A stretch of DNA of 30,354 nt. Origin: a virus. Below, one piece after another: positions 392 to 18,422 of the stretch. A program made the position numbers and the translations under genes. The notes beneath the pieces are model-generated. The model searched no databases and was not told the origin of the DNA. It saw only the letters and a list, made by a program, of their open reading frames with translations. The stretch lies in IMG/VR virus record IMGVR_UViG_3300032220_000291, positions 1-30,354 of that record. One strand, given 5' to 3'. The stretch's first letter is position 1; each line of letters begins with the position of its first letter.

Positions 392-3300
392 TTAGCGAAT
401 GTTTGAAATACCTCTATTGCTGTAATGACCTTCCCAGCTGTAGCTGGTTATAGAGGCTGGCAGCGGGTCTGGGGCATCAATGGTGATGCTCACAAAGTCC
501 CCACGGCTAAATACAGGGATAGCCTTTGAGGTGGTCTCCTGGAGAGCCGCCTGGTTGGCCATGTAAATGTCTGAAGGGGTTACGTCCAGATCAATTGTTA
601 CTGCATCGTATCCAGTCTTAGCAACGGTAACGGTGTATCTACCTGAGTAATAAAGATCAAGGTAGGCAGTCTCAACGATTGGTATGTTCTTCCTATCTGA
701 CCGCTTATCGGAGTTTACCCAGAAAGATGGGAGGGTAATGCTCATGTTGTACTCAAGACCCAATATAAAATCTCTATCTGCAATATCCTTAGCTACAACT
801 ACATAATAGCCGGTAGCATCAGATTGGATAGATGGGCGCTGGAATACTGTAGATACACCATCAACTGTAAGGATGATGTTAGGTACCGCACCTGCAACGT
901 AGCTGCCAGCTGGGAAGCGCACCTTAGTGAAGCCCCCAGTGGTACTGGTTGTAACCTTTGACTTAATAAGGTAGTTGTCAAGCCTAGGCACAAACTTACT
1001 ACCAAAAGCATTGATAGGTGAGGTGTCTGGATCATCCAACATCTCCAACCTAGAGAGTGTATAGTCAGTACCGTTCAAGAGTACGATGTAGCCAGAATCA
1101 TGTACATAGTCAAAGAGACGTACAGGCGCTGGCAGAATCCACTTACACCACCCAGCCAAAGACCGTTCATTACCTGAGTTGAAGAACTTAAAGATCCACA
1201 ACGTATTACTATCGTTGCCAAAAGCAACCAAGCTATTGTTGGGACTGCTACAGGCAAAGGTGAGATCTGGTGGGATGTATTCAGGAGCAATCCTTGTATT
1301 ATCAGCCACCAGCGGACGATTATCGATAGAGTCCACTGCCATCTCAAACACCTTACTGAAGGTATTAGCTTCAGTACTAAACATCACCGATACGCCGGTC
1401 TCCAGCGGTTTAATGTTGGAGGTATAGGCATAGTTAGAGATCTCCGTCATCTTGACAGTAGAAGGACCGAAGGCGGACTCAGTAGTTGCCAGTAGAAACT
1501 GACTGTTTTCAGCGAAGAGCAGAAGACCTTTTGAAGTCCCAATAGCCGCTTTAAGTATTGCTGGCTTTGTAGCTGATGCTGTCATGTCAATTGGATCAGC
1601 ATCCGAAACAGCAATGGCGCTGCCTACAAAGAAGTTAAAGTAATCTCCTGGTTGACTAAGGATTACTGCATCATCAGCCAAGAATCCAAGCCGATTCATA
1701 AAGAAGAAAACTTCCTTGATCTTGCGGCCAACAAAAGATGGGTTGGGGTTAGTCTTGGTATCACCAACAACTCTACCAGCCCAGAAAAGGGAATCATTGT
1801 AGGTACTACTTAAGGGCCTAACCGTAAATTGACCATTGGCTTCACGTATCAAAGCGTGAGGCATAGTTGAGTTATTTAGGTCAGTGGTAATACCAGGTTT
1901 AACTGTCTCTTCCCACGAGCCTGCGCCAGGTATATTGCCGCTACTGGGAACGAACTTAACGTAGTAGTCATCTGCCTCAGCGTCTGCTGTGTTGCGAACC
2001 TTCAACACCACCCCAGCGACGCACTGTGCAGGTAGAAGGCTTACATCGTTGACCTGACCCTTAATACCAGCCAGGGCATTATTCGCAGTACCGCCCCTGG
2101 TCATGATATTAAATTCCCTACTGTCGTCACGCTTGATGTAGACAACGTTACCAACAGGAGTTGCCGAATACTCAGCCAGTGCGTTAATTGATGCTGCTAA
2201 GGTTGAGACGATTGAACTTACACTTAAAGCTCCTCCAGTTTGATCCAGCGGAGTAGTAAAGGAGATCTGTTGCTCAGAGGCGTAGGAGAAAGTGAAATCT
2301 TCCTCTTCAACTGTAATCCTATAAGTTTTACCGTTAAGAGTAACTTCAACAGAGTCTCCCCTCCTCCAGTTCTGTCCACCATTGTTAAGGGTGACCCTAC
2401 TAGAATAAACGGATTTATAAGTATAGACAGGGGTAGAGGGGGCCTGTTGAACTGTGGCCACCCTAAATACAAGACCAAAGGTACTGCCAGCTGGGGTTAC
2501 AAAACCAGTTGAATGCGTAAGGTTAGACGCAAGAGTGCCGGTATCTAGCACCCTTATCTCTTTTGCCCAAGGAGTACCAGATACAGAAGTATAAGAAGAG
2601 ATAGTAGCGTTGACATTGGTAGAGTAGTGATTATGAGCAGGATCGGCTGATTTCTCTACTCTTGTCTCAACTCTTGCCGTTATTGCACCGGCACTTGTAG
2701 TGTAGGTAAAGTTCCTGTACAAGTAAGAGCCTACAGCATAATTGTCAGCAGGACCAAAGTGAAAAGTACCCCAGGTCTGAACACCAGGATACTGAACTTC
2801 AGGCACCGGACCATTAAAGGGACTTAACCATTCTAGCTGAGTTGGGTATGTCGCTCCTTCTTGCTTATCAGTTACTAGCGTGGGGCTACAGCTAGTGGTA
2901 ACAGTAAAGCCTAAGCCGGTCTTACCACCACTTGACTGATTAAAGCTCTGAGTACCAGCAAACGCACAGTTACCGCTATCTGAGTCCTCAAAGGAACCTG
3001 GAGAGATAGAAAGCTTAGACGCTTGCCATACTTTCTGCTGGGTTGTAGTTTGACCATCCTTCAGGAAGTCGACTGAATAGGTAGTGTTGTAGGAGACCTG
3101 GTTCACCACTACCAATGCTTCCTGCACGGGAGTAGAGGGGGTGGACTGCGACATCGACACAGTCTTCTCTGAGTTGCAGAGAATTGTATAGTCGTTAATA
3201 GTCAGAGGCTTTAGGTTTTCAACCTTACTAACCGCCAAATAATTAGCAGCATCACCCAAGATTGATACGGTGCGCTCAACACCAGTATCAGCCTCCCATA

Positions 3301-3574
3301 CCCTTAGGATAGTTTGTCCAGTCGTAGCACTCTTATAAATAGCTGTGATATACCGCTCATTCTCATCCCTGAAAATCGGGAACCATCTAGCTGTTTTAGG
3401 AATATCACTAGCCAGCTTAGCAATAAATTCAGTTGGAGGTCTTTTACGGCATCCAAAAGTGGGGTCGAGTAGAACGTTCTTTGCCTCTCTAACCTGCCCA
3501 GGCAGCTTAAGGGGATCAGGTTGTTGACTTACCCCCCCGAGTAGGTTTGGAATGACCTGGGAGATTGCAGACAT
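392..3574 (-). CDS. Tail tubular protein B (T7 gp12-like tail nozzle)
   Basis: 1060 residues. The N-terminus (ISQVIPNLLGGVSQQPDPLK, then an N-V-L-L-D-P-T-F-G-x-R-K-R-P stretch) is the characteristic opening of gp12-type nozzle proteins. Further matches to the family are the FFMNRLGFLADDAVILSQPGDYFNFF region and the DPIDMTASATKPAIL region in the middle of the protein. gp12 forms the distal tail nozzle below gp11. The gene begins 2 nt after the gp11 homologue stop and ends 2 nt before the gp13-like gene, a T7-like late order. It is clearly longer than T7 gp12 (794 residues); the extra length appears to lie in the Ser/Thr/Gly-rich section at roughly residues 150-400. The start at 3574 is the first methionine of the conserved opening. 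Confidence 0.93.
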   Translation of the reverse strand: MSAISQVIPNLLGGVSQQPDPLKLPGQVREAKNVLLDPTFGCRKRPPTEFIAKLASDIPKTARWFPIFRDENERYITAIYKSATTGQTILRVWEADTGVERTVSILGDAANYLAVSKVENLKPLTINDYTILCNSEKTVSMSQSTPSTPVQEALVVVNQVSYNTTYSVDFLKDGQTTTQQKVWQASKLSISPGSFEDSDSGNCAFAGTQSFNQSSGGKTGLGFTVTTSCSPTLVTDKQEGATYPTQLEWLSPFNGPVPEVQYPGVQTWGTFHFGPADNYAVGSYLYRNFTYTTSAGAITARVETRVEKSADPAHNHYSTNVNATISSYTSVSGTPWAKEIRVLDTGTLASNLTHSTGFVTPAGSTFGLVFRVATVQQAPSTPVYTYKSVYSSRVTLNNGGQNWRRGDSVEVTLNGKTYRITVEEEDFTFSYASEQQISFTTPLDQTGGALSVSSIVSTLAASINALAEYSATPVGNVVYIKRDDSREFNIMTRGGTANNALAGIKGQVNDVSLLPAQCVAGVVLKVRNTADAEADDYYVKFVPSSGNIPGAGSWEETVKPGITTDLNNSTMPHALIREANGQFTVRPLSSTYNDSLFWAGRVVGDTKTNPNPSFVGRKIKEVFFFMNRLGFLADDAVILSQPGDYFNFFVGSAIAVSDADPIDMTASATKPAILKAAIGTSKGLLLFAENSQFLLATTESAFGPSTVKMTEISNYAYTSNIKPLETGVSVMFSTEANTFSKVFEMAVDSIDNRPLVADNTRIAPEYIPPDLTFACSSPNNSLVAFGNDSNTLWIFKFFNSGNERSLAGWCKWILPAPVRLFDYVHDSGYIVLLNGTDYTLSRLEMLDDPDTSPINAFGSKFVPRLDNYLIKSKVTTSTTGGFTKVRFPAGSYVAGAVPNIILTVDGVSTVFQRPSIQSDATGYYVVVAKDIADRDFILGLEYNMSITLPSFWVNSDKRSDRKNIPIVETAYLDLYYSGRYTVTVAKTGYDAVTIDLDVTPSDIYMANQAALQETTSKAIPVFSRGDFVSITIDAPDPLPASITSYSWEGHYSNRGISNIR

Positions 3575-3576
3575 AA

Positions 3577-4170
3577 TTAGTATCTATAAAGAGGATTTAC
3601 TGGCCTATAATTGAGGAAAGGTACAACCTCCTCCGAATCAGAGAAGACGTTGTAATCTCCCTGCTGTGTGTCGTACTCCAGGGCCCCAGAGCGGGCCATG
3701 ATCTCTTCACGCTCACCGAACCGAACCGCTTCTACAGAGCCAACAGAGCGCCCAGCAAAGACATTGGCAGCTCTAATGGTGATGTAGTTCTTAAAGGCTT
3801 CAGGGATATCCTCAAAGTCAAGAAGCCATACAACATCCAGCTTTTGAATGCCTTCAAAAGTGTAGGTATGGGCAACCCTGTCGTAGAGCTTTCCACTACG
3901 AATAGTAGCCTTGATCTGTGAGTAGGGGTTCGTATCCAAAGATAGAACGTTATCTGGGATAGTAATCTCTTTGCTGGGATTAGGGGTAAAAGGGAAGCTG
4001 CGCTCCGTATTAAATACCCATCCTTCCGCCTGTACTGAGCGGGTAATCTCATCAAGTATCTGCTCTGCCATCTCAACCAGTGGGTTACCAGACTGCAACG
4101 TAGTTACTGGAGCCTGCCCGATATTTGAGATGATAGTATTAACTGCTGCTAGTTTAGTCGCTTTAGCCAT
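3577..4170 (-). CDS. Tail tubular protein A (T7 gp11-like)
   Basis: 197 residues, almost exactly the length of T7 gp11 (196). The opening (KLAAVNTIISNIGQAPV) and the following AEQILDEITRSVQAEGWVFN are the standard N-terminal signature of this adaptor protein. The later FEDIPEAFKNYITIRAA stretch also fits. gp11 forms the ring that joins the portal to the gp12 nozzle. The gene lies downstream of the capsid gene across a Rho-independent terminator and is followed 2 nt later by tail tubular protein B, as in T7. No clear Shine-Dalgarno sequence is visible upstream of the ATG at 4170. Confidence 0.93.
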   Translation of the reverse strand: MAKATKLAAVNTIISNIGQAPVTTLQSGNPLVEMAEQILDEITRSVQAEGWVFNTERSFPFTPNPSKEITIPDNVLSLDTNPYSQIKATIRSGKLYDRVAHTYTFEGIQKLDVVWLLDFEDIPEAFKNYITIRAANVFAGRSVGSVEAVRFGEREEIMARSGALEYDTQQGDYNVFSDSEEVVPFLNYRPVNPLYRY

Positions 4171-4200
4171 TTGTATTTCTAGGGGAATGGTAAGCCCCCG

Positions 4201-4221
4201 AGAAAGGGGGCCGAAGCCCCC
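4201..4221 (-). terminator. Rho-independent terminator after the capsid gene
   Basis: On the minus strand GGGGGC-TTCG-GCCCCC forms a 6-bp GC stem with a UUCG tetraloop, followed by TTTCT. It sits 16 nt after the capsid stop codon and before tail tubular protein A, the same place as the T7 terminator T-phi between genes 10 and 11. It probably lowers tail gene expression relative to capsid. Confidence 0.85.
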
Positions 4222-4236
4222 AGTCGGGGAGAATTA

Positions 4237-5226
4237 TCAGGCTTTAGCCTGGAAGGAACCAGCAACGCTGGTACGCAGGGAACCTGCACCGATGGCCAGC
4301 TTGCCGACGATCAGATCGCCTTGGTACTGGACATGGAAGTCACCTGAAGTGGTCTCGATGCTGGGTCCGATTGCGGACACAACACCCGCAGCTTCGCGGT
4401 GGAAGATCAGACCAGCACAGGTAGCATTAGCATCTGCATAGTCGTTGTTCTCACCAGTTACAGCGGTGTTGTAAGCCGCCATGAAGGGGAGGTTGTTCGA
4501 CTTGTAGATACGAATACCAGCGATGCTGTAGAGGCCCTTGCCACTGTTCATATCGCCTTGGCTGTTTCCGATCTCGCGGTTGAGAATCTGTGTGTCCACA
4601 GAGGAAACGAGACTGTAGTACTGACGAGGAGAAAGTACACAGACACGGCCATCCTGGGGAGCAGCCCGCTCATCCAACACAGCTGCAGCTTCAAAGAAGC
4701 CGTCAACAATGGACTGTGCGTTGTACTCATTACCAGCGCCAAGCTTCACTTCAAAGCCACCAGGCTCGCCGGTGACGACAGAAGCTTCACGAGAGGCAAT
4801 GTCAAGGACGCGCCAAATGCGCTGGTCATAATGTTTGGCCAAAGCCTCACCGATCTGCTTCGAGATCTCCGACCGTGTGGAGTACTGCGAAAGTACCTCA
4901 TCGAGGTCGTAAACAAACTGGCTAGAGACCAGCAGATCATCCATGAGGATGGTCTTTTCGTTAGCCTTCAGTGCAGTATCACCGAGGATAGGTGTGCCGG
5001 GTGTATGATATCCAGCGCCGAGTTTTCCGGTCAGCAAAAATTGTTTTGATTTGCCACCACGCAGGGTGTAGGAGCGAACCAGGCCCTGGGCAATAGAAGC
5101 GTTGTTGAAGGCAGTGAAGACTTCGCCAGAGAACAGCTTAAGCGCGGTTGAATACTTGTCGGCGTAAGCGTTGGACTGGCTACCGTTCACGGCATTGGGC
5201 CGTGAGATGTTAGCAATGTTAGTCAT
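4237..5226 (-). CDS. Major capsid protein (T7 gp10-like)
   Basis: 329 residues from the ATG at 5226 (MTNIANISRPNAVNG). The family pattern is clear: ADKYSTALKLFSGEVFTAF, then LTGKLGAGYHTPGTPILGD, the EKTILMDDLLVSSQFVYDLDE helix, LSPRQYYSLV, and a C-terminal AAGVVSAIGPS...YQGDLIVGKLAIGAG. This is the HK97-fold shell protein of T7-like phages. An upstream in-frame ATG at 5274 would add 16 hydrophobic residues (MDLIGRPTNSIFLLLQ) not expected in the family, so I prefer 5226; neither start has a clear Shine-Dalgarno sequence. The gene is preceded by a comparatively long gap and followed by a terminator, so it is probably its own strongly expressed unit. Confidence 0.95.
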   Translation of the reverse strand: MTNIANISRPNAVNGSQSNAYADKYSTALKLFSGEVFTAFNNASIAQGLVRSYTLRGGKSKQFLLTGKLGAGYHTPGTPILGDTALKANEKTILMDDLLVSSQFVYDLDEVLSQYSTRSEISKQIGEALAKHYDQRIWRVLDIASREASVVTGEPGGFEVKLGAGNEYNAQSIVDGFFEAAAVLDERAAPQDGRVCVLSPRQYYSLVSSVDTQILNREIGNSQGDMNSGKGLYSIAGIRIYKSNNLPFMAAYNTAVTGENNDYADANATCAGLIFHREAAGVVSAIGPSIETTSGDFHVQYQGDLIVGKLAIGAGSLRTSVAGSFQAKA

Positions 5227-5274
5227 TTGAAGAAGGAGAAAGATTGAATTGGTCGGTCTTCCGATCAAATCCAT

Positions 5275-5398
5275 TTCAGTGAAAGTTATCCGTCGTAACG
5301 GGCTTCCTCCTACTAGTAGATTCTTATCTGTATAGACCTAGGTTGTGAACCCTTGCAAGGTTTGCCGTTACTAAGCCACGGACACGGGCATCAGGACC
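5275..5398. promoter_or_regulatory. Leader gap between scaffold and capsid genes, probable late promoter region
   Basis: This is one of the few real gaps inside the late region (172 bp if the capsid starts at 5226). It contains a perfect palindrome CCTTGCAAGG at 5351-5360. On the minus strand an AGGAGG lies near 5302, too far from either capsid start to be its ribosome site. In T7 the strongest promoter lies before gene 10, so a phage promoter is expected here, but I cannot recognise its sequence. Confidence 0.3.
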
Positions 5399-6244
5399 TC
5401 AGAGGAGATCCTTACTTCTAGCCAACCTGTCCTCCACATCAGCGCGAAAGGCTGGATCGTTGTGGTACATGGGATTAGCAATATCCCGAGCCAGCTCTGC
5501 CTGGCTGCGGTATGGCTTAGGACCACTAGAACCCTTGCGGCCAGTTACCAGAGGAGCCTCATAGCCCTCCGCTGAGCGGAAGCGATTAGACATCGCCTCC
5601 ACTGCGAACTTGATAGCTACAGGATTGCCGCTGTTGGTGATGGCGTTGTAATCCTCGATCTCTGCAGGAGAAAGGTTCTCAGCTGCCCAAGAGGTCATCT
5701 CTGCATAGGCTGCATCACCACCTACTGATTGCTTGATCGCATTGATCTGCTCAGCCTGTAGGGATGCCTGTTGGTTGGTTGAAGATACCTGCTGCTGATA
5801 CTGAAGGTAGGACTTAATAAGCTCCTTCTGATCCATCTGGCTGAGACGCTCGATGGCCTCTTCAGGAAGCTCTCCAGTTTGATCGTATTGACGACCAAGC
5901 TCCAACATATAGTTGACCGTTTCAGATGATTCCTCAACTTGCGGAACATCATCTGTAGAGGGGCTAGGAGGCTCTTCAGTATCCTCTCCATCCTCTTCGT
6001 TGGTATTCTTGCCTAGCTTAGATTCAAGCTCCTTGTAGGCCCGCAGGAGATCATCCTGGGATTTGAACTTACCCCCAATAAGGGATAGGTTTTCATTCTC
6101 GCTATCCTGCTGATTAAACAGGCGTTGCCGATCCTCTTCAGCTGCTTGAGCAAGCTTCTCACCCTGTTCAAGGGCAGCAGTCTCGACTTGAAGCTGCTCA
6201 GCTGTCGGCTGATCACTGGATGGGTCAAAGGTAAGCGTGGGCAT
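5399..6244 (-). CDS. Scaffold / capsid assembly protein (T7 gp9-like)
   Basis: 281 residues, very acidic and rich in Gln and Glu. An ordered N-terminal part includes SLIGGKFKSQDDLLRAYKELESKLG (about residues 54-78), the typical segment of T7-like scaffolds that links to the acidic linker. A Glu/Asp/Pro/Ser-rich stretch follows at about residues 84-105, then helical segments. The C-terminus is charged (DPAFRADVEDRLARSKDLL), as expected for the capsid-binding end. Scaffolds direct capsid shell assembly and leave before maturation. Position between portal and capsid is that of T7 gene 9. It starts 2 nt after the stop of the small gene to the right. Confidence 0.85.
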   Translation of the reverse strand: MPTLTFDPSSDQPTAEQLQVETAALEQGEKLAQAAEEDRQRLFNQQDSENENLSLIGGKFKSQDDLLRAYKELESKLGKNTNEEDGEDTEEPPSPSTDDVPQVEESSETVNYMLELGRQYDQTGELPEEAIERLSQMDQKELIKSYLQYQQQVSSTNQQASLQAEQINAIKQSVGGDAAYAEMTSWAAENLSPAEIEDYNAITNSGNPVAIKFAVEAMSNRFRSAEGYEAPLVTGRKGSSGPKPYRSQAELARDIANPMYHNDPAFRADVEDRLARSKDLL

Positions 6245-6246
6245 AT

Positions 6247-6519
6247 TTAGTAGAAATTGGTGGATATGGTGCCAAAGGTGGGCCTTACGCTATTCGCCTG
6301 TTTGTTGCTGTACTTACCAGCATCTTCCTGGGCTTTAGTCTGGCCTGTTACCTTTGGTTTTACGGAATACTTACCCGCCGACTTCTCAGCAGGTGCTAGT
6401 TCCACGGGCTCCCATGCTTCATTCACATCAGGAACTGTGGGGTTATCGCCCTTAAACTGACCGTCAGGCTGGCGGGCCCTCCGGCGTGGTTGGTCCGGGC
6501 TGTTGTTGGTTGTTGGCAT
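6247..6519 (-). CDS. Small virion-module protein of unknown function, 90 aa
   Basis: 90 residues, hydrophilic, with a basic Arg-rich N-terminus (PRRRARQPDGQFKG) and a Lys/Tyr-rich middle (GKYSVKPKVTGQ, then GKYSNKQAN). It ends in TFGTISTNFY. It overlaps the 3' end of the portal gene by 56 nt in another frame and ends 2 nt before the scaffold gene, so it is almost certainly co-expressed with head genes. I do not recognise a family. Low complexity, the repeated GKYS and the aromatic C-terminus suggest a minor structural or assembly peptide, but that is inference. The start at 6519 is the only ATG covering the whole frame. Confidence 0.6.
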   Translation of the reverse strand: MPTTNNSPDQPRRRARQPDGQFKGDNPTVPDVNEAWEPVELAPAEKSAGKYSVKPKVTGQTKAQEDAGKYSNKQANSVRPTFGTISTNFY

Positions 6520-8080
6520 TGATTAGTTGTTCTCCAATTGGTGACTTAGCAAGCTGACCCACCTGTCCCATAATTTGTGATTGGGCGGCCTGTTGCTGTG
6601 CTAGCTGCTGTTCTTGTGCCATCTGCTCCTCATCCTTCACGAGGCCCAAGGTGTCGATGCCACTAGCAGCTGCTAGACGCTTGAGTAGCTCAGTTGGGTT
6701 GATATAAGTAGCCAGGGCCTCTGGACCCATTGACTGCCCAACGGTTGCGAGGAACTCCATAAGAGCTTGGCGGTCCTGACCACGGCCAATGCCGTTAAGA
6801 CCAGCTACCACGGTGGGAAGTACCAGGCCCTTAGGCAGCTGTGGAATAGCCTTGTTCCGGCTCAGTAAATAGAGCTTGCGGTTTAGGTAAGGCTGCAGTA
6901 GTTCAGTTGTAAGATTCCCGTAAATTCCACCGAGTTGCTCATTGAGCTCCTGTTGGACGGCGGCGATTTCGGTTGCGGTTGTGCGTTCTGAATTCCTAGG
7001 ATTAAGTATCAGGAAGGCATCAGCCAGACGTTGAGTAAGGCTTTGGATCATCTCCTGAACAGTACGGAAGTCTGCGGTCTTACCAACCTGCACAACTCCG
7101 ACATCATCTGGACGACCTTGAATAATTGCCCCATTGGCAGCATTAGCCAAGCTCTGAGGCTTGGTAGTAGCCGAAGGGGAGACCAGGAATACAACCTTTG
7201 CAGCCGCTGCTGATCCCTCAACCATGCTCTGCATCAGCCCTTCCAGGCTCCGCAGATCGCCCATGAACTCTTCCACCCGACCGCGCCCGTAGTCTTCACC
7301 TGAGACGACATTCCAGCGCAGGGGGAGCCAGGGGGTTAGGGACTTAGGAGCATTGGACTCAGAGCCAGTAAGCAGCTTTCCATCTACTTCCTGATGCCAC
7401 CGCCACTGGCCATCTACAAGTTTGGCCCAGGTATAGACATCGACACTTTCAATGTCATTTGTACCAGCGGTACCAAACTTAGGACCATCCTCTCCAGGTG
7501 AATTGGAATCCTTACCACCCAATAGAGGCTTCTGGAACTCCTTAGGCAGGAGAGAACGATGAGTATTTTCTTTTGTGAGGAGTTCAATGGCATTACCATC
7601 TCCGTCCCTATTAACTACAAAACTATCTAAAGGGTAGATTCGGAGGGCTTTCTTCCCGGCAAATACTAATACATTGCCTGTGACGACCAGATGTTTCATC
7701 GCATTATGCAGCATCACACGGTCACTGGTCTCCGCGATCTGTTGCATGATCATCCTCTCCATCTTGGATAGGGAGAGATCGATCTCTGAGCGTATCTGAG
7801 GGCTTACCTCTGGAATAGAGGCAACCTCAGCATCATTGATCTGCAGCTTAAAGAAGCTGGTATTGACGGGGAAGAGGCTGAGCATCAATTTAGATGCCAG
7901 CACGTTGACGCCCTTGGCTCCCACGGATTGCCACGGAACAGGAAGCATCCCACCTGAGGCCACACCAACGTCAGTAACGAGGTATGGAAGTGTCAAGCGG
8001 GAAGCATCACGTCCAGTGTCAAGGAAAGCCTGCCGATCTGTCGCTAAGAATTGATAGCGAGATTGGGCTAGTTCTTTCAT
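6464..8080 (-). CDS. Portal (head-tail connector) protein, T7 gp8-like
   Basis: 538 residues, matching T7 gp8 (536). The N-terminus (a YQFLATDRQAFLDTGRDASRLTLPYL-type segment, written here in part) is the family opening. LPLRWNVVSGEDYGRGRVEE and the FLILNPRNSERTTATEIAAV stretch are conserved portal signatures, and LGGIYGNLTTELLQPYLNRKL follows. The last 50 residues are Gln-rich low complexity (AQEQQLAQQQAAQ, then NNQQQPGPTTPEGPPA). The dodecameric portal nucleates head assembly, is the packaging channel and binds gp11. The gene starts 8 nt downstream of the Pro-rich protein's stop and overlaps the next small gene. Confidence 0.95.
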   Translation of the reverse strand: MKELAQSRYQFLATDRQAFLDTGRDASRLTLPYLVTDVGVASGGMLPVPWQSVGAKGVNVLASKLMLSLFPVNTSFFKLQINDAEVASIPEVSPQIRSEIDLSLSKMERMIMQQIAETSDRVMLHNAMKHLVVTGNVLVFAGKKALRIYPLDSFVVNRDGDGNAIELLTKENTHRSLLPKEFQKPLLGGKDSNSPGEDGPKFGTAGTNDIESVDVYTWAKLVDGQWRWHQEVDGKLLTGSESNAPKSLTPWLPLRWNVVSGEDYGRGRVEEFMGDLRSLEGLMQSMVEGSAAAAKVVFLVSPSATTKPQSLANAANGAIIQGRPDDVGVVQVGKTADFRTVQEMIQSLTQRLADAFLILNPRNSERTTATEIAAVQQELNEQLGGIYGNLTTELLQPYLNRKLYLLSRNKAIPQLPKGLVLPTVVAGLNGIGRGQDRQALMEFLATVGQSMGPEALATYINPTELLKRLAAASGIDTLGLVKDEEQMAQEQQLAQQQAAQSQIMGQVGQLAKSPIGEQLINANNQQQPGPTTPEGPPA

Positions 8081-8457: not shown

Positions 8458-8635
8458 TATCTGTTAATGAATAAAGGTAATCAATGACGTTACGCTGTCC
8501 AGCCTCAAACATTAGCTTCGACAATGAATCGTCAGGTGTGGGAGTTCGCTGTGGGAAGACTTCATCTAAGTCAGCAAGGAGCTTAATTAAAAGGTCTTCA
8601 CCACCGAATACATCCTGTACGGATAGTTCAGCCAT
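8441..8635 (-). CDS. Conserved small protein before the portal region, 64 aa
   Basis: 64 residues, acidic and probably helical: VQDVFGGEDLLIKLLADLDE, then FPQRTPTPDDSLSKLMFEAGQRNVIDYL. Proteins of this shape (FGG opening, TPTPxD middle, GQRxVxxYL end) occur in cyanopodoviruses just before the portal gene as far as I recall, with no known function. It overlaps the RNR small subunit gene by 8 nt and the Pro-rich gene by 17 nt, so it is translationally coupled in the same transcript. A minor virion or assembly role is likely from context only. Confidence 0.6.
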   Translation of the reverse strand: MAELSVQDVFGGEDLLIKLLADLDEVFPQRTPTPDDSLSKLMFEAGQRNVIDYLYSLTDNVLLP

Positions 8636-9350
8636 ATGCGGGTAGGTTTACATTGCTTGCCTCAAAGAACGCAGGCATCCGTGCTCGTTGTGTATCGGCT
8701 AGGCCTTCGGCTTTGCCATTCGCATATAGCGAATCCGATTGCTTTAACCAGAACTCTTTATCGAGCCACTTGTTCTCTACGTTTGCTTTAAGGGGTTCCA
8801 TCACCCAGGACACTGTGGCCCTACGGAGACGGTTAAGGTTAGTGGTTGTCTTTAGCCCAAGGTCATGGCAGACCATGCCGTGGAGGGCAACATGGGTCTG
8901 CTCATCCCGCGAGATATCGGCCGCCAATGTTCTAATTCCAACGTCCCCATTGAAGCGGAAGAAGGGCAATAGAACGAAGAAGACTGACCTCTCAAGGATT
9001 GACGCTTTAAGCAAAGGATGCTCTGGAGCGGCAAGCCACGTTGACTTGATCTTCTCAGCTTCCCTTTCAGATTTGCTGTCACTGCCATGAGCAGCAACAA
9101 CGTAATTAAGGCCCAGGTCGTGCTTATCTTCATCCAGTTGGTTTGACATAAGAGCTTCGGCTACCCCTGCAATTGGGGGCAGCTCCTTCTCTAGACCCTG
9201 CTGAAGGAACTCCTTCACAGGGATCTCCAAACACCGGAGAGATAAGGCACGATACAGGGCCTCTTCTGATCCATCTACCAGGCTGCCTTTATCGACAGCT
9301 ACTGGCGTCCATTTACGCTTTCTTGATACAATTTCTAGATACTTTGACAT
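8628..9350 (-). CDS. nrdB: Class I ribonucleotide reductase, small (beta) subunit, tyrosine-radical residue replaced
   Basis: 240 residues, a compact ferritin-like R2 protein (cellular forms are about 320-375). The metal-ligand pattern is visible: E74-x-x-H77 (LDEDKH), E120 (SILERSVFF) and E150-x-x-H153 (RDEQTH), with an acidic first ligand near E42/E47. In E. coli NrdB the radical tyrosine lies seven residues after the E of the first ExxH; here that residue is L81, and the nearest tyrosine is Y83. This suggests a tyrosine-independent (for example dimanganese) cofactor. The subunit generates the radical used by NrdA to make deoxynucleotides. It overlaps the nrdA stop by 1 nt, so the subunits are co-translated. 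Confidence 0.88.
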   Translation of the reverse strand: MSKYLEIVSRKRKWTPVAVDKGSLVDGSEEALYRALSLRCLEIPVKEFLQQGLEKELPPIAGVAEALMSNQLDEDKHDLGLNYVVAAHGSDSKSEREAEKIKSTWLAAPEHPLLKASILERSVFFVLLPFFRFNGDVGIRTLAADISRDEQTHVALHGMVCHDLGLKTTTNLNRLRRATVSWVMEPLKANVENKWLDKEFWLKQSDSLYANGKAEGLADTQRARMPAFFEASNVNLPAYG

Positions 9351-10726
9351 TACTCAGCGCACGATACACAGTATTCATCGTCCTCTTCAAATGCGAAGAT
9401 GTCTTTATATTCGTCATCCAGGATAGAGGACACATCATCTTTACGGAGGGTGTCCGGCATAACTTGGAGCGAATAGTAGAGGGACGTTTGTGGCGACTTA
9501 AGCCACTCCTCTACAAATGCTTCGTCATAAGTGACGACATCGGACCAACTGTTAAAGCTGTATCCATGCAGCAGACCAGTGCGATCAAGCATCCGAACGA
9601 TGCCATCTGCCACTGACTTGTAGGCTTTCCACCCGACCTCTGCAGCAATCTCGACGTTTCCATAGTCGAAGCTCTCCACACCAAAGGTACCGCTGTCGCG
9701 GTCAACATGACGGGAAATAGGAGGAGCAATCTCCGGGCAAGTAGTAAACCCATCCAGATCCTTATAGCGATAGCTACAGGAAGCTGTAGGGGCAATGGCA
9801 AAGGCCCGCTCCATACCAGCCGCCCTAGCTACCTGGGCAGCAGCTTGGACACCACGCTCAAACTCATTGGCCAGGACTAGAGCAGGTGTCCTTTCGTAAG
9901 AAACACCAGAGTTGATGATCTCCAAAGCCTCTCCAAACACCTCATAAGAAACACCGTACCTAGCCAGTAAGTTTGCTAAGCCAAGCATCCCAAGACCAAC
10001 CTGCCGGTCTACTTCTGGGGCAAGATATTCGCCACTCTCTCCAACGCCTGTTTTAGCGTGGAGAGCACATAAGTCTGACATCCCTCCGACAAAGGCCCTT
10101 TGTATATCGTCAATATCGCAGGCTCCAAGATTGATGTGCTCAAGGAGGCAGGTACCTCTACTCGGAAGATACACTTCAAGGCAGACATTTCCGTAGATTC
10201 GATTTCCATTTACATCCACCTTTGATTTGTTGAGCCAAATGTCCCCACGGGCAATACCTGCCAGCACTGCAGCTTTCACTTCGGGGGTAGCTTCACCCCA
10301 CATATGAGTAGTTAGATTGACGCAGCGCTTGACCCAAGGCAACTCGGAACGACTCGCATTAACAAACTCCAGGATGTCTGCATGGTCGAGGGAAAGATGT
10401 AAAACACATGCACCGTTCTTGTATACCCCACCTCTACGTAGGATCTCATTGAGGGCAGAGTAGATCTTTCCAAAAGATACCGGCCCTGAAGCCACAAGGC
10501 CTTTACCATTTTCGGCTCCCCTAGGCCTAAGCTTTGAAAGATGAACGGCACACCCTGCTCCAAAGCGGAGAGCGTGGCTAACAAAGCGCCAGCTCGCCTC
10601 AATGCCATTGGGCCCCGTCATCTCATCTTCCACCACAAAAACAGTGCAGGAGACAGGGAGACGAGAAGTTGGATCATCAATCCATGATTGAACCCGTCCG
10701 GTACGGGCAATAAATGATTTATTCAT
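9350..10726 (-). CDS. nrdA: Class I ribonucleotide reductase, large (alpha) subunit, minimal form
   Basis: 458 residues, much shorter than cellular NrdA; the N-terminal ATP-cone is absent, so dATP feedback through that domain should be missing. Catalytic landmarks by eye: C27 (PVSC, equivalent to E. coli C225), N180-x-C182-x-E184 (GNVCLEVY; N437/C439/E441), C193 (C462), the radical-transfer pair Y417-Y418 (SLYYSL; Y730/Y731) and the C-terminal redox pair C453/C456 (YCVSCAE). The tyrosine pair and the adjacent nrdB indicate class I rather than class II. It reduces ribonucleotides for phage DNA synthesis, probably with the nearby thioredoxin-like protein or host thioredoxin as reductant. It overlaps the preceding 46-aa gene by 8 nt. 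Confidence 0.92.
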   Translation of the reverse strand: MNKSFIARTGRVQSWIDDPTSRLPVSCTVFVVEDEMTGPNGIEASWRFVSHALRFGAGCAVHLSKLRPRGAENGKGLVASGPVSFGKIYSALNEILRRGGVYKNGACVLHLSLDHADILEFVNASRSELPWVKRCVNLTTHMWGEATPEVKAAVLAGIARGDIWLNKSKVDVNGNRIYGNVCLEVYLPSRGTCLLEHINLGACDIDDIQRAFVGGMSDLCALHAKTGVGESGEYLAPEVDRQVGLGMLGLANLLARYGVSYEVFGEALEIINSGVSYERTPALVLANEFERGVQAAAQVARAAGMERAFAIAPTASCSYRYKDLDGFTTCPEIAPPISRHVDRDSGTFGVESFDYGNVEIAAEVGWKAYKSVADGIVRMLDRTGLLHGYSFNSWSDVVTYDEAFVEEWLKSPQTSLYYSLQVMPDTLRKDDVSSILDDEYKDIFAFEEDDEYCVSCAE

Positions 10727-10859
10727 TAGTAGTTAGTGGTGGATTAGTCAGTACATAGTCAGAGATCGTTGTATAACACAGCAGACTCTCTTCCAAATCA
10801 AGCCCACCGTTAGCTAGGTCAACAGCTGCAGCTAATGCCGCTTTCTGTTCGTCGGTCAT
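10719..10859 (-). CDS. Small acidic protein, unknown, 46 aa
   Basis: A 46-residue frame from the ATG at 10859 (MTDEQKAALAAAVDLANGG) to TAA at 10719. It overlaps the MazG-like gene's 3' end by 4 nt (ATGA) and the nrdA start by 8 nt. This tight coupling, and the exact filling of the gap between two certain genes, is the main evidence that it is translated. The sequence is acidic and helical in its first half, then LEESLLCYTTISDYVLTNPP. No family recognised. It could contribute to RNR regulation given its place, but nothing in the sequence shows it. Confidence 0.5.
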   Translation of the reverse strand: MTDEQKAALAAAVDLANGGLDLEESLLCYTTISDYVLTNPPLTTNE

Positions 10860-11239
10860 ACAAGATCGCTCAGGTAAGGCGGTTGATAGTTAGGCCCCTT
10901 CAGGCATTTACCATCTTCTCGATACAGAGGCTTACCATCAACTAATTTGGACAGGTTACTCTTGTGAACCCGGTCTAGGGCTTCATCTAGTTCCCATCCA
11001 AGGGCAGCTGCAAACTGAAAACATACATAAACAAGATCAGACAATTCCTTCAGAGCATCAGCCCTAGCATTGTCATTCTGTGGATTTACTTGAGCAATAT
11101 CGAAGGCATCGAAGAACTCATACATCTCCTCCCAAATCAGATCAGACTGCAGGCCTATGACTGATGGATCTGTTGTACCGATGGGCTGCCCCATCAGGGT
11201 ACGGAATTCAATGGCCTGAGTTAGCAGGGTGCTGGTCAT
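10856..11239 (-). CDS. MazG-like / PRA-PH type nucleotide pyrophosphohydrolase
   Basis: 127 residues. The all-alpha NTP-pyrophosphohydrolase pattern is visible: E37-E38-x-x-E41 (LIWEEMYEFFDAF) followed by E65-x-x-D68 (LKELSDLVYV), the metal-binding residues. Then comes VHKSNLSKLVDGK...DGKCLKGPNYQPPYL, typical of phage members of this superfamily. These enzymes hydrolyse nucleoside triphosphates or related nucleotides. Cyanophage MazG proteins have been proposed to act on alarmones or to recycle GC-rich host nucleotides. Its neighbours (RNR, DUF3310 protein) place it in the nucleotide supply module. The start at 11239 is followed upstream by a GTTGG...GGTAATT stretch resembling a degenerate copy of the intercistronic motif. 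Confidence 0.85.
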   Translation of the reverse strand: MTSTLLTQAIEFRTLMGQPIGTTDPSVIGLQSDLIWEEMYEFFDAFDIAQVNPQNDNARADALKELSDLVYVCFQFAAALGWELDEALDRVHKSNLSKLVDGKPLYREDGKCLKGPNYQPPYLSDLV

Positions 11240-11829: not shown

Positions 11830-12560
11830 TAGGGTTGATAAAGAATTGGCACCTGACCTTCTGAATCCCAGTCTTCAGCCTGCAAAATCCGAGCCAGACG
11901 CAAGTTCCGTAGGGCAGCTTCGTAGCCTTGCCCTGATTGCTCATAGGCTTCAACTACAGCTGGCCAGTACTCCTGGTTCTTACATTTATCCAGGATCTGT
12001 TCAGCCCGCTTCGGGCCTACACCTACGCAGCCGCTGTAACCATCGGTCTGGTCACCAGTCAGGCACTGCTCAAAGAGCTTCCGTCGAGCCGCTTCGGGGC
12101 TCTGGTCAAACTCATCCTTTAGGTCGTAGATACGGCAAGCAACCTGCTGCATGTCCTTATCAGGTGAGATAAGAACAAAGCTGGGGAGGCTGCCATTGGT
12201 GGCCAGGATTCCGCAGACATCATCAGCCTCCAGGCCAGGCTTCATGATTGAGGGAAAGGTCTCTATCCCCCACTCCTTGAGCCGCAGGTAGCCGCACGGT
12301 TTGCGCTTGACCCGATTGCCCTTGTAAGAGGGGTCAATGGTCTTGCGGAAGTTGACCCTATCGGTAAAGGTCAGCAGGAGATCCTTGGTATCGAAACGGT
12401 CCTGGAGCCTGGACAGCTCCTGTTGGACGATCTTCTTCCCCCTCTTGAAGTCCCCAACGATGACGGTTAGTTCCTCGTTGTAGTCGTGCTCTTCCTCGCT
12501 GGCTGAAGCCGCTCGGTAAAAGAAGTAGTCAGCATCAATCAGAAGCTTTAGTGGTTGCAT
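11829..12560 (-). CDS. 5'-3' exonuclease (T7 gp6-like, FEN family)
   Basis: 243 residues (T7 gp6 is 300). FEN/PIN-type acidic residues in order: D9-x-D11 (LLIDADYFF), E111-x-D113-D114 (LEADDVCGIL), D134-x-D136 (SPDKDM) and D170-x-x-D173 (TGDQTDGY), followed by a helix-hairpin-like GVGPKRAEQIL at 180-190 for DNA binding. The KGNR basic segment near residue 80 fits the helical arch. gp6-type enzymes remove RNA primers and degrade host DNA. A perfect copy of the intercistronic motif core directly abuts the ATG at 12560. It overlaps the upstream endonuclease VII-like gene by 26 nt. Confidence 0.9.
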   Translation of the reverse strand: MQPLKLLIDADYFFYRAASASEEEHDYNEELTVIVGDFKRGKKIVQQELSRLQDRFDTKDLLLTFTDRVNFRKTIDPSYKGNRVKRKPCGYLRLKEWGIETFPSIMKPGLEADDVCGILATNGSLPSFVLISPDKDMQQVACRIYDLKDEFDQSPEAARRKLFEQCLTGDQTDGYSGCVGVGPKRAEQILDKCKNQEYWPAVVEAYEQSGQGYEAALRNLRLARILQAEDWDSEGQVPILYQP

Positions 12561-12972
12561 TTGGTTGAGTGGAATTGATTAAATAATATAAGGCCCGCTT
12601 TAGTACAGCCGGGTCGTCATGAAGCAAGCCAATCCCTGAGTTACAGGAAGTACAGACATAGCCACGGAAAGTCCCACCCGTATGGCAGTGATCTAATACC
12701 CATTTGTCAGTCTGATACAAGCAGATTGGACATTCCCCAGGAGGTGGGGGAGGGTTCTGTAGACGCAGCTGGCGGCGGATCTCAGACTGTTCTGTTGCAC
12801 ACGCCTTACAGCGGTTGCGGGTTGCTCTATGTTGCCCATCTGCCTTGATAAAAGCAGAGTCTGGCTTTTCTATTCCGCAAGTCTTACAGCATTTAGTGAA
12901 CTTGGCTCCAGTCGTCTCCTGATTTGGGATCGCAATCGAGAGGACATCTAAAACTGAAAGCTGTTTCCACAT
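12535..12972 (-). CDS. Recombination endonuclease VII-like (zinc/HNH) protein, uncertain start
   Basis: About 145 residues if it starts at the in-frame ATG at 12972. Two zinc-knuckle pairs (C29-x-x-C32, C55-x-x-C58) precede the endonuclease VII core: C81-x-x-C84, then D94-H95-C96-H97, then R-G-Y-V-C107-x-x-C110-N111, ending in GIGLLHDDPAVLKRALYYL. This family resolves branched DNA; the position matches where T7-like phages may carry nucleases. Oddly, the only ATG lies 80 nt inside the DNA polymerase gene, in the +1 frame, and no ATG, GTG or TTG exists nearer the first zinc cysteines. A non-standard start or a +1 frameshift from the polymerase is possible. Confidence 0.75.
   Translation of the reverse strand: MWKQLSVLDVLSIAIPNQETTGAKFTKCCKTCGIEKPDSAFIKADGQHRATRNRCKACATEQSEIRRQLRLQNPPPPPGECPICLYQTDKWVLDHCHTGGTFRGYVCTSCNSGIGLLHDDPAVLKRALYYLINSTQPNATTKASD
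12561..12576 (-). promoter_or_regulatory. Intercistronic motif copy before the exonuclease gene
   Basis: Coding strand reads AATTCCACTCAACCAA immediately before ATG. The CCACTNNNCCAA core is perfect. It lies inside the 3' end of the endonuclease VII-like gene. This is the only exact copy outside the early region and the 18.3 kb site. No Shine-Dalgarno sequence is present. Confidence 0.7.
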
Positions 12973-14656
12973 CCTTAATAGCAGCGGTAATACAATAGAG
13001 AGCCTTATCAACATCTTCTGGAGCAACACTCCAACTCATCTGGTCATGGACAAACTCCACAGGCCAGTAGTCAAAGCCAGCCTCCTTAGCCAACTCGTTA
13101 GCCCTAATTACCCAGCCTTTACAGAGAATTGCTCCGGCTGATTGAAGTAGGTAATTGAGAGCTGCATGTGGCTTCTTAATACGGATAGGTCTCCCATCTA
13201 AGCCAGTAATCACTCCAGACTCAGCTCGCCCAGTTACAGCCTCAGAGAGCTGCTTAAAACCATCCAGGTTGGCTAGAACTTTGGACCGGATCTGTTTACC
13301 ACGCCTGGCAGCATCATCCTTAGTAGCACCAGCAGAGATGCCTAACTTGGTATCTCCACCGCCATAGATCATGCAATAGGTCACTGTCTTACCAGTTGAT
13401 CTATCAGTGCCATAGATCTTGGCTAGGTGGGTGTGGATGTCACCCTCCAGTAGTTCCTTACCAAACTTGCCCTGGTCCCACCGGCTGAGATAATGCGCTA
13501 AGCATCTCAGCTCAAGGCCAGCAGCATCAGCAGATACAAGCTTCCGTCCAGCACCTGCATGAAAGAGTTCCCGGTATTCATGATCTGAGGGGACCTGGGC
13601 CAGGTTAGGCTTCATGTGGGCCATACGGCCCGTGGCTGTATTGAGGATGCAGGAGTGATGGATACGACCATCCTTCCCCACCTTTTTCAGCCAGGCATTA
13701 GCCCCCTCGCTCAGCTGACCTAGGTGCTTCTGTAGCTCCAAGATCCGGCCAAACTTAAGTGACTCCTCGGTGCCCAACTCTTTGAGCACCGTCTCGTCGA
13801 TCTTCGGGGTTCCGGTCTCCGTGAACTCAGTAGGCTCCCATCCTCTGAACCATTTGAAAGCAAAGGCAATGTGGTGCCTGGAGGTTGGGTTGAACTCTTT
13901 GAGGCGGCAGAACTCAGCGCCGGTCACATACCCTCGTGTTTGATTGGGGCGGGCCGGTGTGAAGTTACCTCCATCCACAAAATGGAATGTGGATCGCATC
14001 TCGTCTGAGAGCTGTTCAAGTTCTACCCGTAGCTTTCCTTCCAGCTGGTGGGCCTTCTGTTCATCAAATGGGAATCCCTCCCGTTCCTGCCAAGACATGA
14101 GCCTGGCGATCTCATGCTCAGTCCTGATGCAGTCGGCATACTTCTCCAGTTTGGGCTGAAAAAGTTGGCTTAGTGCAACTGATACTTCAACGTCTTGAGC
14201 GCAGTAGTCGAGCATCTCAGGGGTGTAGGTAGACCAGTCACCTTTGAGCTGCTTGCCGTACTCACTCTTCAGGCAGCCGAGGCGGTAGCCCCAACTCTCC
14301 AAGCTGTGCCGCCCATAAAGCTGGGATGGCATGTTGGGTGGCTTGCTCCGAAAATCCCGATCCAGGATGTCCGTAAAGAACAGGCGGGACAGGATCAAGG
14401 TGTCATAGACCCGCTGCTTTGGATTGAAGAAGGGATACACTTCGCGGATGGCCTCAAAGTCATAGCCGACCACGTTATGGCCCCATAGTTCATCAGCCTC
14501 AGCCAGGATGTTGATTCCTGTGGTGACTGATTCATGGGCTCCGGTATCGTCATAGCGACACACTTGGCCACTATCAAGATCCTGTGTAACTAGGCAGTGG
14601 ACCGTGGATAGTTCCCGAAGGAGTCCATCAGTCTCAACGTCAAATGCTAATCTCAT
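12893..14656 (-). CDS. DNA polymerase, family A (T7 gp5-like) with 3'-5' exonuclease
   Basis: 587 residues (T7 gp5 is 704). Exonuclease motifs: D6-x-E8 (FDVETDG), D66 (VVGYDFEA) and D155 (YCAQDVEV), all intact, so proofreading is expected. Polymerase motifs: A around D377 (LVSADAAGLELRCLAHYL), B with K423 and Y427 (STGKTVTYCMIYGGG), and C at H537-D538 (VEFVHDQMSW). Y427 is equivalent to T7 Y526. Replicates phage DNA, in T7 with thioredoxin as processivity factor; a thioredoxin-like gene lies just upstream here. The shorter length suggests a reduced thumb region, so whether the T7-type thioredoxin-binding loop exists is unclear. Start 14656 gives the standard opening MRLAFDVETDG. Confidence 0.95.
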   Translation of the reverse strand: MRLAFDVETDGLLRELSTVHCLVTQDLDSGQVCRYDDTGAHESVTTGINILAEADELWGHNVVGYDFEAIREVYPFFNPKQRVYDTLILSRLFFTDILDRDFRSKPPNMPSQLYGRHSLESWGYRLGCLKSEYGKQLKGDWSTYTPEMLDYCAQDVEVSVALSQLFQPKLEKYADCIRTEHEIARLMSWQEREGFPFDEQKAHQLEGKLRVELEQLSDEMRSTFHFVDGGNFTPARPNQTRGYVTGAEFCRLKEFNPTSRHHIAFAFKWFRGWEPTEFTETGTPKIDETVLKELGTEESLKFGRILELQKHLGQLSEGANAWLKKVGKDGRIHHSCILNTATGRMAHMKPNLAQVPSDHEYRELFHAGAGRKLVSADAAGLELRCLAHYLSRWDQGKFGKELLEGDIHTHLAKIYGTDRSTGKTVTYCMIYGGGDTKLGISAGATKDDAARRGKQIRSKVLANLDGFKQLSEAVTGRAESGVITGLDGRPIRIKKPHAALNYLLQSAGAILCKGWVIRANELAKEAGFDYWPVEFVHDQMSWSVAPEDVDKALYCITAAIKDVETAFSFRCPLDCDPKSGDDWSQVH

Positions 14657-14659
14657 AAG

Positions 14660-14761
14660 CTACCAGTGGTGAATAACCCCTGCAACAATGAAGAGGTTGG
14701 TGATAAAGATGAGTCCATCAAATAGCGTGTTGAGTCTACTTAGTACTCTCTTCTCCCTCAT
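14660..14761 (-). CDS. Very short hydrophobic peptide, 33 aa (tentative)
   Basis: A 33-residue frame (MREKRVLSRLNTLFDGLIFI, then TNLFIVAGVIHHW) with a positively charged N-terminus and one hydrophobic stretch long enough to cross a membrane. It overlaps the last 26 nt of the thioredoxin-like gene and ends 3 nt before the polymerase ATG, so it exactly fills an otherwise unexplained 79-nt gap. There is a GGATGAGGGAG context around the start but no proper Shine-Dalgarno. Evidence is position and a plausible membrane-peptide layout only. Confidence 0.4.
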   Translation of the reverse strand: MREKRVLSRLNTLFDGLIFITNLFIVAGVIHHW

Positions 14762-15062
14762 CCCTGCGGCGGCTATGGATTGCATATAAAGCGGAAGACC
14801 ACCAATCAACTGTAAGAAACTTACCGCCAACCTTTCGGGCTAGCTCGTTGGTCTCCTTGTCAAAGATGATTGCCGTGGGATAGAGGCTCAACTCATAGGC
14901 GGCCACCAGAGCTGGGTGATTCTCCTTTTGGAATACAGTTACGATGTAATGGTATTCAGGATGGGCAGCTAAGACTGTCTTAAGGGCCTCCAGTGCATTG
15001 GCACAGGGGGCACAGTCTGCTTTCTTGAAGAGGCAGATCTTGTGTGGATTAGAAGTCGTCAT
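14736..15062 (-). CDS. Thioredoxin-like protein
   Basis: 108 residues with a C17-A-P-C20 active site (FKKADCAPCANALEAL), a following helix, then AAYELSLYPTAIIFD, where the cis-proline of the fold is the P in YPT, and VGGKFLTVDWW. This is a complete small thioredoxin fold with a CAPC rather than CGPC centre. It probably donates electrons to the phage RNR encoded downstream. In T7 host thioredoxin is the polymerase clamp, so a phage copy adjacent to the polymerase could serve that role instead; this is inference. It overlaps the primase-helicase gene by 14 nt. Confidence 0.85.
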   Translation of the reverse strand: MTTSNPHKICLFKKADCAPCANALEALKTVLAAHPEYHYIVTVFQKENHPALVAAYELSLYPTAIIFDKETNELARKVGGKFLTVDWWSSALYAIHSRRRDEGEESTK

Positions 15063-18380: not shown

Positions 18381-18422
18381 AGAACCTGAAACTAGCGCGT
18401 CTACCAATTCCGCCACATCCGC
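18381..18422 (-). other. Probable attP core: 5' half of a tRNA-Leu gene
   Basis: On the minus strand the 42 bp begin GCGGATGTGGCGGAATTGGT and run through the D-arm into the anticodon loop, TTCAGGT, which gives a CAG anticodon in register. This is the 5' half of a cyanobacterial-type tRNA-Leu; past the loop the sequence no longer pairs (TCTCA instead of a matching stem), so it is not a complete tRNA gene. It lies 83 nt after the integrase stop. P-SSP7 carries, as I recall, a 42-bp match to host tRNA-Leu in the same position, making this the likely recombination core. The exact boundary with host identity was not tested. Confidence 0.85.

Follow-up and report, generated by a model that had tools for sequence, protein, structure and literature searches.

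A minimal class Ø ribonucleotide reductase in a T7-like cyanopodovirus, with a probable metal-centred oxidant

Results

A ribonucleotide reductase gene pair in a cyanopodovirus record

The window analysed here, a 30,354-base IMG/VR virus record (IMGVR_UViG_3300032220_000291), carries the genes of a T7-like cyanopodovirus, nearly all of them on the minus strand. A block of structural genes (positions 392–8080) is followed by a ribonucleotide reductase (RNR) pair, MazG, DUF3310, an exonuclease, DNA polymerase A and a thioredoxin-like protein, and further on by a primase-helicase, endonuclease I, a gp2.5-like ssDNA-binding protein, an integrase, RNA polymerase, ThyX and a large terminase-like ORF. 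The structural genes, the RNA polymerase and the terminase gave no family match. We take the structural genes to encode tail tubular proteins, capsid, scaffold and portal, names that fit the gene order of Syn5, with which the presumed RNA polymerase and terminase are likewise consistent. The two RNR genes, encoding NrdA (alpha) and NrdB (beta), are intact and adjacent, the NrdA stop overlapping the NrdB start by one base (Table 1). The corresponding region is annotated in Syn5 as MazG, alpha, beta, two small ORFs and portal, and SS120-1 has the same RNR order with a hypothetical protein replacing MazG.

Table 1. Features of the RNR locus and its neighbours, in window coordinates
Feature	Position	Strand	Basis
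NrdB-like beta, ferritin-like radical-generating subunit, 240 aa	8628–9350	−	ORF; PHROG 6799; AlphaFold2; structural matches
Y239, C-terminal, probable Y356 equivalent, in disordered tail 222–240	8634–8636	−	Alignment; AlphaFold2; published clade role
E150-x-x-H153, metal ligands; preceding D149 at E. coli D237 position	8892–8903	−	Alignments; published code
E120, metal ligand	8991–8993	−	Alignment; published code
Tyr83 (TAC), alternative tyrosine, not conserved as Tyr	9102–9104	−	Alignment; 80-row tree
Leu81 (CTT), site of E. coli Tyr122	9108–9110	−	H77+4 in one unbroken predicted helix; alignment
E74-x-x-H77, metal ligands; preceding D73 is the second-sphere residue	9120–9131	−	Alignment; published code
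E42, first metal ligand	9225–9227	−	Homologue alignment; published ligand code
W14, probable E. coli W48 equivalent	9309–9311	−	178/178; low-significance profile alignment
NrdA-like alpha, catalytic subunit, 458 aa, minimal	9350–10726	−	ORF; PDB 7urg; Pfam PF02867 only
C453-x-x-C456, C-terminal reductase tail	9359–9370	−	Alpha alignment
Y417-Y418, radical-relay dyad (E. coli Y730/Y731; S-CBP4 Y420/Y421)	9473–9478	−	Alignment; Burnim 2022
C193, active-site disulfide partner (S-CBP4 C196; E. coli C462)	10148–10150	−	Alignment; Burnim 2022
NVCLE finger loop (N180–E184), catalytic C182, class Ø signature	10175–10189	−	Alignment; PMC9669993
C27, active-site cysteine (S-CBP4 C30; E. coli C225)	10646–10648	−	Alpha alignment; Burnim 2022
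MazG-like nucleotide pyrophosphohydrolase	10856–11239	−	dNTP-module neighbour; same order in Syn5 and S-CBP4
Thioredoxin-like protein, CAPC motif	14736–15062	−	45% identical to Syn5 gp25; candidate electron donor (inferred)

Two further features lie outside the RNR module. The upstream part of an endonuclease VII-like ORF (12535–13029, minus strand; PHROG 2633, 5.4e-24) runs into the 3′ end of the gene for DNA polymerase. A 42-base stretch at 18381–18422 (minus strand), 84 bases past the integrase stop, may be a candidate attP core; it resembles the 5′ half of a tRNA-Leu, and Prochlorococcus phage P-SSP7 has a 42-base tRNA-Leu match near its own integrase. ARAGORN found no tRNA in the window, the stretch had no match within 3 mismatches in two Prochlorococcus genomes of unstated completeness, and an exact 23-mer taken from it was absent from our set of RNR loci.

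The assignment of the pair to RNR is far beyond chance, since the match of beta to PHROG 6799 is full-length (3.9e-114) and alpha matches PDB 7urg with an E-value of 2.3e-233. The latter, a cryo-EM structure and the only close one solved for alpha, was confirmed as the gene product of Synechococcus phage S-CBP4, to which the window alpha is about 76% identical (tblastn). Neither Pfam nor NCBIfam recognised beta. Beta matches occur in 56 of the 50,697 records of a phage collection, all of them from cyanophages or uncultured phages, and alpha matches in the same number. The best named beta relatives are Cyanophage SS120-1 (69.6%) and then Syn5 (67.1%), and the closest IMG/VR contig among the matches listed shows 96% beta identity. 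Banchanvirus SS120-1 and Voetvirus Syn5, the closest named relatives, share the RNR gene order with the window, which falls on their side of the beta tree, unlike P-SSP7; SS120-1 has Phe81 where the window has Leu81.

Some relatives are unusual in arrangement or annotation. Microcystis phage Mic1 (locus L086 of our set), which among the named members is the least similar to the window (beta 34%, alpha 43%), has its alpha and beta genes about 12 kb apart (61630–62367 and 74712–76049) rather than as the adjacent pair seen elsewhere, and its beta extends five residues beyond the C-terminal Tyr. One beta match (L102:3001–3942) is 942 bases long, against the usual length of about 710, possibly owing to an insertion, an intron-like element or a frameshift. 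Prochlorococcus phage P-RSP2 (HQ332139.1, 33324–35399) matches alpha and beta in two pieces each, unannotated, for which frameshifts are possible. In many phage records alpha still goes under 'class II' or nrdJ, while beta is entered as a 'hypothetical protein' or as 'class Ia', and MK016662 has a periplasmic thiol:disulfide oxidoreductase annotated under the beta match.

The catalytic subunit is minimal and carries a class I-like radical relay

Sequence and predicted fold together describe alpha as a minimal barrel with a tyrosine dyad, three active-site cysteines and a tail bearing a cysteine pair. The tyrosine relay and terminal cysteines named in a preliminary description of this DNA are both present, as Y417-Y418 and C453-x-x-C456. 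Alpha was obtained from 237 loci, which yielded 169 distinct sequences; 33 of these, under 430 aa, were dropped, and the remaining 136 were aligned with that of the window. N180, V181, C182 and Y417 are found in all 137 rows, E184 and Y418 in 136 each (with one ambiguous residue), the finger-loop Leu in 132, and C27 in 135 (one ambiguous, one gap); C193 belongs to the columns conserved at 99% or more. The loss of an active-site cysteine at C203 in some alphas was considered and rejected: C203 is an extra cysteine, replaced in 6/137 alphas (three Leu, two Asn, one ambiguous), and the true partner is the conserved C193, matching C196 of 7urg. The C-terminal motif is CXXC in 68 alphas including that of the window, CXC in another 68, and neither in one (L264). 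CXXC-tailed members are regarded as more ancestral by Burnim 2022 (PMC9531940).

The nrdJ or class II label carried by phage records implies a B12-dependent enzyme, and the best NCBIfam partial match of alpha is indeed NrdJ_Z, at 68.6 bits, far below the cut-off of 399.95. Class II enzymes are distinguished by an NPCXE finger loop and by having no beta, whereas the window has NVCLE, the Y417-Y418 dyad and an adjacent beta gene with a complete dimetal site. The dyad of 7urg is stacked beside the catalytic cysteine (PMC9531940), and a class II identity of the window pair is extremely improbable.

The Pfam search of alpha returned PF02867 only and no ATP cone, in agreement with the preliminary description. 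Since the ATP cone is missing, overall activity control is absent. The broader earlier claim of reduced allosteric control holds for this level of regulation, but the substrate-specificity site is very probably kept, because the S-CBP4 alpha of 7urg, about three-quarters identical to that of the window, binds TTP at its specificity site and dimerises with TTP (PMC9531940).

The beta subunit keeps all metal ligands

Betas were collected from four viral-contig scans, one genome-contig scan and named phage records. The viral scans, whose queries were three single betas and one alignment, were taken nearest first with the best 80 per scan, so the viral loci are not a random sample. Beta was obtained from 266 of 269 loci (L087, L088 and L089 were skipped before searching), giving 184 distinct sequences; seven under 225 aa were dropped, and the remaining 177 were aligned with the window sequence. 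All six metal ligands (E42, E74, H77, E120, E150 and H153) are present in NrdB, so that the E/H pattern described earlier is borne out. W14, E42, D73, E74, H77, E120, D149 and E150 are invariant across the 178 distinct betas, H153 occurs in 177 with the remaining row (L101) ambiguous, and Y239 occupies every one of the 177 rows with a residue at that position.

According to Burnim 2022, clade Ø betas are about 240 aa long and carry either Phe or Leu in place of the radical Tyr; their C-terminal Y239 is followed by one residue, they have no docking tail, and they can be unstable without metals (PMC9531940). The window beta ends accordingly in Y239-G240. Among the 177 betas, 26 (L046–L083 and relatives) deviate from a single residue after the C-terminal Tyr: 14 have three, six have two and five have five, while L208 ends before the Tyr. 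The published one-residue rule is therefore not universal.

No core tyrosine is indispensable in the sampled betas

The preliminary description had stated that NrdB lacks the usual radical tyrosine, with Leu81 in its place, and the homologues uphold this: position 81 is Leu in 170 of the 178 distinct betas, Phe in 8 and Tyr in none. The equation of position 81 with E. coli Tyr122 is based on the ExxH+4 spacing in a predicted helix and on published comparisons, since the sequence alignment itself is non-significant.

A tyrosyl-radical class I enzyme could instead hold its stable radical on Y83, which is Tyr in 168/178 distinct betas and lies on the same predicted helix as the first ExxH motif. 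The other 10 betas have Phe at this position; the residue pairs at 81/83 are L/Y in 160, L/F in 10 and F/Y in 8. The Phe83 rows keep every ligand and are scattered over clearly different clades of the beta tree. This tree comprised 80 rows after 90% clustering, with the named phages and the F81/F83 rows kept first, and neither L101 nor columns 81 and 83 entered its construction. It requires at least 2 changes at site 81 and at least 10 at site 83, although the figure of ten separate losses is approximate, because this was a quick tree with 20 of its 77 inner branches starred. Helical geometry, as distinct from coordinates, also places H77+6 well round the unbroken helix from H77+4. Since Y83 has been replaced by Phe about ten times across the tree, it appears dispensable and was rejected as the radical site; a stable tyrosyl radical there is very unlikely.

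The other core tyrosines are not invariant either. Y4 is excluded as a radical site because it is replaced by Phe in five betas, and the C-terminal Tyr239 is the sole tyrosine without substitution in the alignment. As no core tyrosine seems indispensable across the sampled betas, the metal site most likely stores the oxidant. Leu81 and the tyrosine census favour a metal-centred oxidant feeding W14 and Y239; a Trp-based intermediate involving the invariant W105 and W182 is possible. The tyrosine counts in 178 distinct betas are an addition of the present analysis, a class-wide exclusion of beta tyrosines being absent from the portions consulted of the published accounts of the clade.

The predicted beta fold is that of class I R2 proteins

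The AlphaFold2 model of beta (35 sequences) has a pLDDT of 89.4, with low confidence in the tail 222–240. A predicted helix spanning residues 63–88 carries E74, H77, L81 and Y83 without a break, and the other ligands lie on predicted helices 29–54 (E42), 112–134 (E120) and 137–163 (E150 and H153). This order of helices and ligands is that of class I R2. All 50 matches listed by VIA-align are R2 proteins of RNR or putative class I RNRs. The best Z is that of 4m1i, the Mn/Fe class Ic NrdB of Chlamydia (Z 19.8, rmsd 3.2, 226 aligned), with other class I R2 proteins scoring equally well, and the list includes 6sf4 (Leeuwenhoekiella NrdB; Z 19.7, rmsd 2.9, 216 aligned), 5ci1 (a Y122-variant R2; Z 19.4, rmsd 3.3, 227 aligned) and 8rah (class Ie; Z 18.8, rmsd 3.1, 218 aligned). 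At E ≤ 0.001 Foldseek gave four matches, each annotated as a ribonucleotide reductase. The structure-based comparison yielded R2 folds only, but Ia, Ib, Ic, Id and Ie proteins score equally or nearly so, and no subclass or cofactor type is singled out. Taken with the sequence, the model points to a ferritin-like beta whose dimetal site is complete and has no neighbouring tyrosine.

Sequence searches are less informative at this distance. A single-protein PDB search with beta returned nothing at E up to 1, and a profile search of PDB gave only matches at E 0.26–0.36. The hhalign comparison with class Ia beta was not significant (probability about 2%); W14 and the second metal half were the only parts in register, and the E74–H77 helix was out of register. 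It set W14 opposite E. coli W49 (Met counted) and E120, E150 and H153 opposite E205, E239 and H242. PF00268 class I beta genes were found in none of three genomes with class Ø loci, a count of little weight, since the contigs concerned may well stem from phage DNA binned into MAGs.

Discussion

The window RNR is an ordinary member of the group already described as class Ø or Cyano SP (proposed If), a placement based on alpha homology to 7urg and on the position of beta within the clade. It shows every published sequence hallmark covered by the analysis, namely NVCLE, the Tyr dyad, a minimal alpha without ATP cone, the ligand code, Leu81 and a beta of about 240 aa with a C-terminal Tyr; NVCLE has been published for 30 of 35 class Ø alphas (Protein Science 2022, PMC9669993). 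The window alpha resembles that of S-CBP4 in being minimal and without an ATP cone, in NVCLE and in the Tyr dyad, with the active-site cysteines offset by 3, but ends in CXXC (CVSC) where S-CBP4 has CXC (CNC). P-SSP7 shares with the window the E-E-H-E-E-H code with D/D second sphere, which is the published Cyano SP code, as well as the missing Tyr122 and a beta directly after alpha; its beta is 51% identical to that of the window, and its tail is CXC rather than CXXC. The P-SSP7 reanalysis mentioned in the preliminary description is Harrison 2019, in which the hidden P-SSP7 beta was found, Tyr122 noted as missing and a novel class I subclass 'If' (Cyano SP) proposed (PMC6370689). Since the group has been described for many cyanophages, the contig extends it by a new member but not by a new type. 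The formal place of the group is disputed: against the class I subclass of that proposal, Burnim 2022 sets up a clade of its own, clade Ø, at the base of classes I and II (PMC9531940).

Comparison with the established subclasses sets the window beta apart from each of them. The first ligand is Glu in classes Ic and Id and Asp in Ia/Ib (PMC6370689); the window has Glu42 and, at H+4, Leu81, in contrast to Ia/Ib. Class Id keeps the Tyr and has C/S in the second sphere, where the window has Leu81 and Asp73, and class Ie has lost metal-binding carboxylates, whereas all six ligands are kept here. An alternative is a true class Ic enzyme of the Chlamydia type with a Mn(IV)/Fe(III) cofactor: its first-sphere code, including the Glu first ligand, is identical, the radical Tyr is missing in both, the R2 fold is common to both with 4m1i among the best structural matches, and the weak PDB profile matches include Chlamydia NrdB entries. 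Class Ic nevertheless has a second-sphere Glu (E119 in C. trachomatis) where Asp73 is found in 178/178 betas, the C. trachomatis NrdB has 346 aa against 240, and the window alpha is without ATP cones. The structural scores tie with non-Ic R2 proteins, and the beta trees of Harrison 2019 all place the group away from Ic (PMC6370689). A class Ic identity is accordingly unlikely.

We therefore read the window pair as a class Ø RNR of a T7-like cyanopodovirus with a metal-centred oxidant, at a probability of roughly 0.8, the mechanism being modelled on class I enzymology. The dimetal centre, after reaction with O2 (or superoxide), would itself be the oxidant. From this centre the hole would travel by way of D149/W14 to Y239, which lies in the mobile beta tail, and from there through Y418/Y417 of alpha to C182, whose thiyl radical would reduce ribonucleotides. 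The C453/C456 tail would reset the resulting C27–C193 disulfide together with a thioredoxin-like donor, for which the thioredoxin-like protein of the window is the likely candidate; its Syn5 homologue is annotated merely as gp25. The outcome would be an O2-using, B12-independent dNTP supply for phage replication. A more specific proposal is tentative and rather doubtful: the class Ø beta may form an oxidant type unseen in Ia–Ie, set by Asp73, pass the hole directly to W14/Y239, and dock without the C-terminal anchor of about ten residues, Y239 serving as both relay and contact. A 2026 preprint on virioplankton RNRs describes the group as yet to be biochemically characterised (PMC12918982), and our literature search, which reached few subscription journals, found no biochemical data on the cofactor or activity of the clade.

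The window provides one more member of a group that has been called the most minimal RNR known and that one published phylogeny places basal to classes I and II. Many phage records still carry class Ø genes as class II or hypothetical. The homologue counts give a simple rule, that no core tyrosine is indispensable, and this rule sharpens the questions of which metals are used and how so short a beta docks to alpha.
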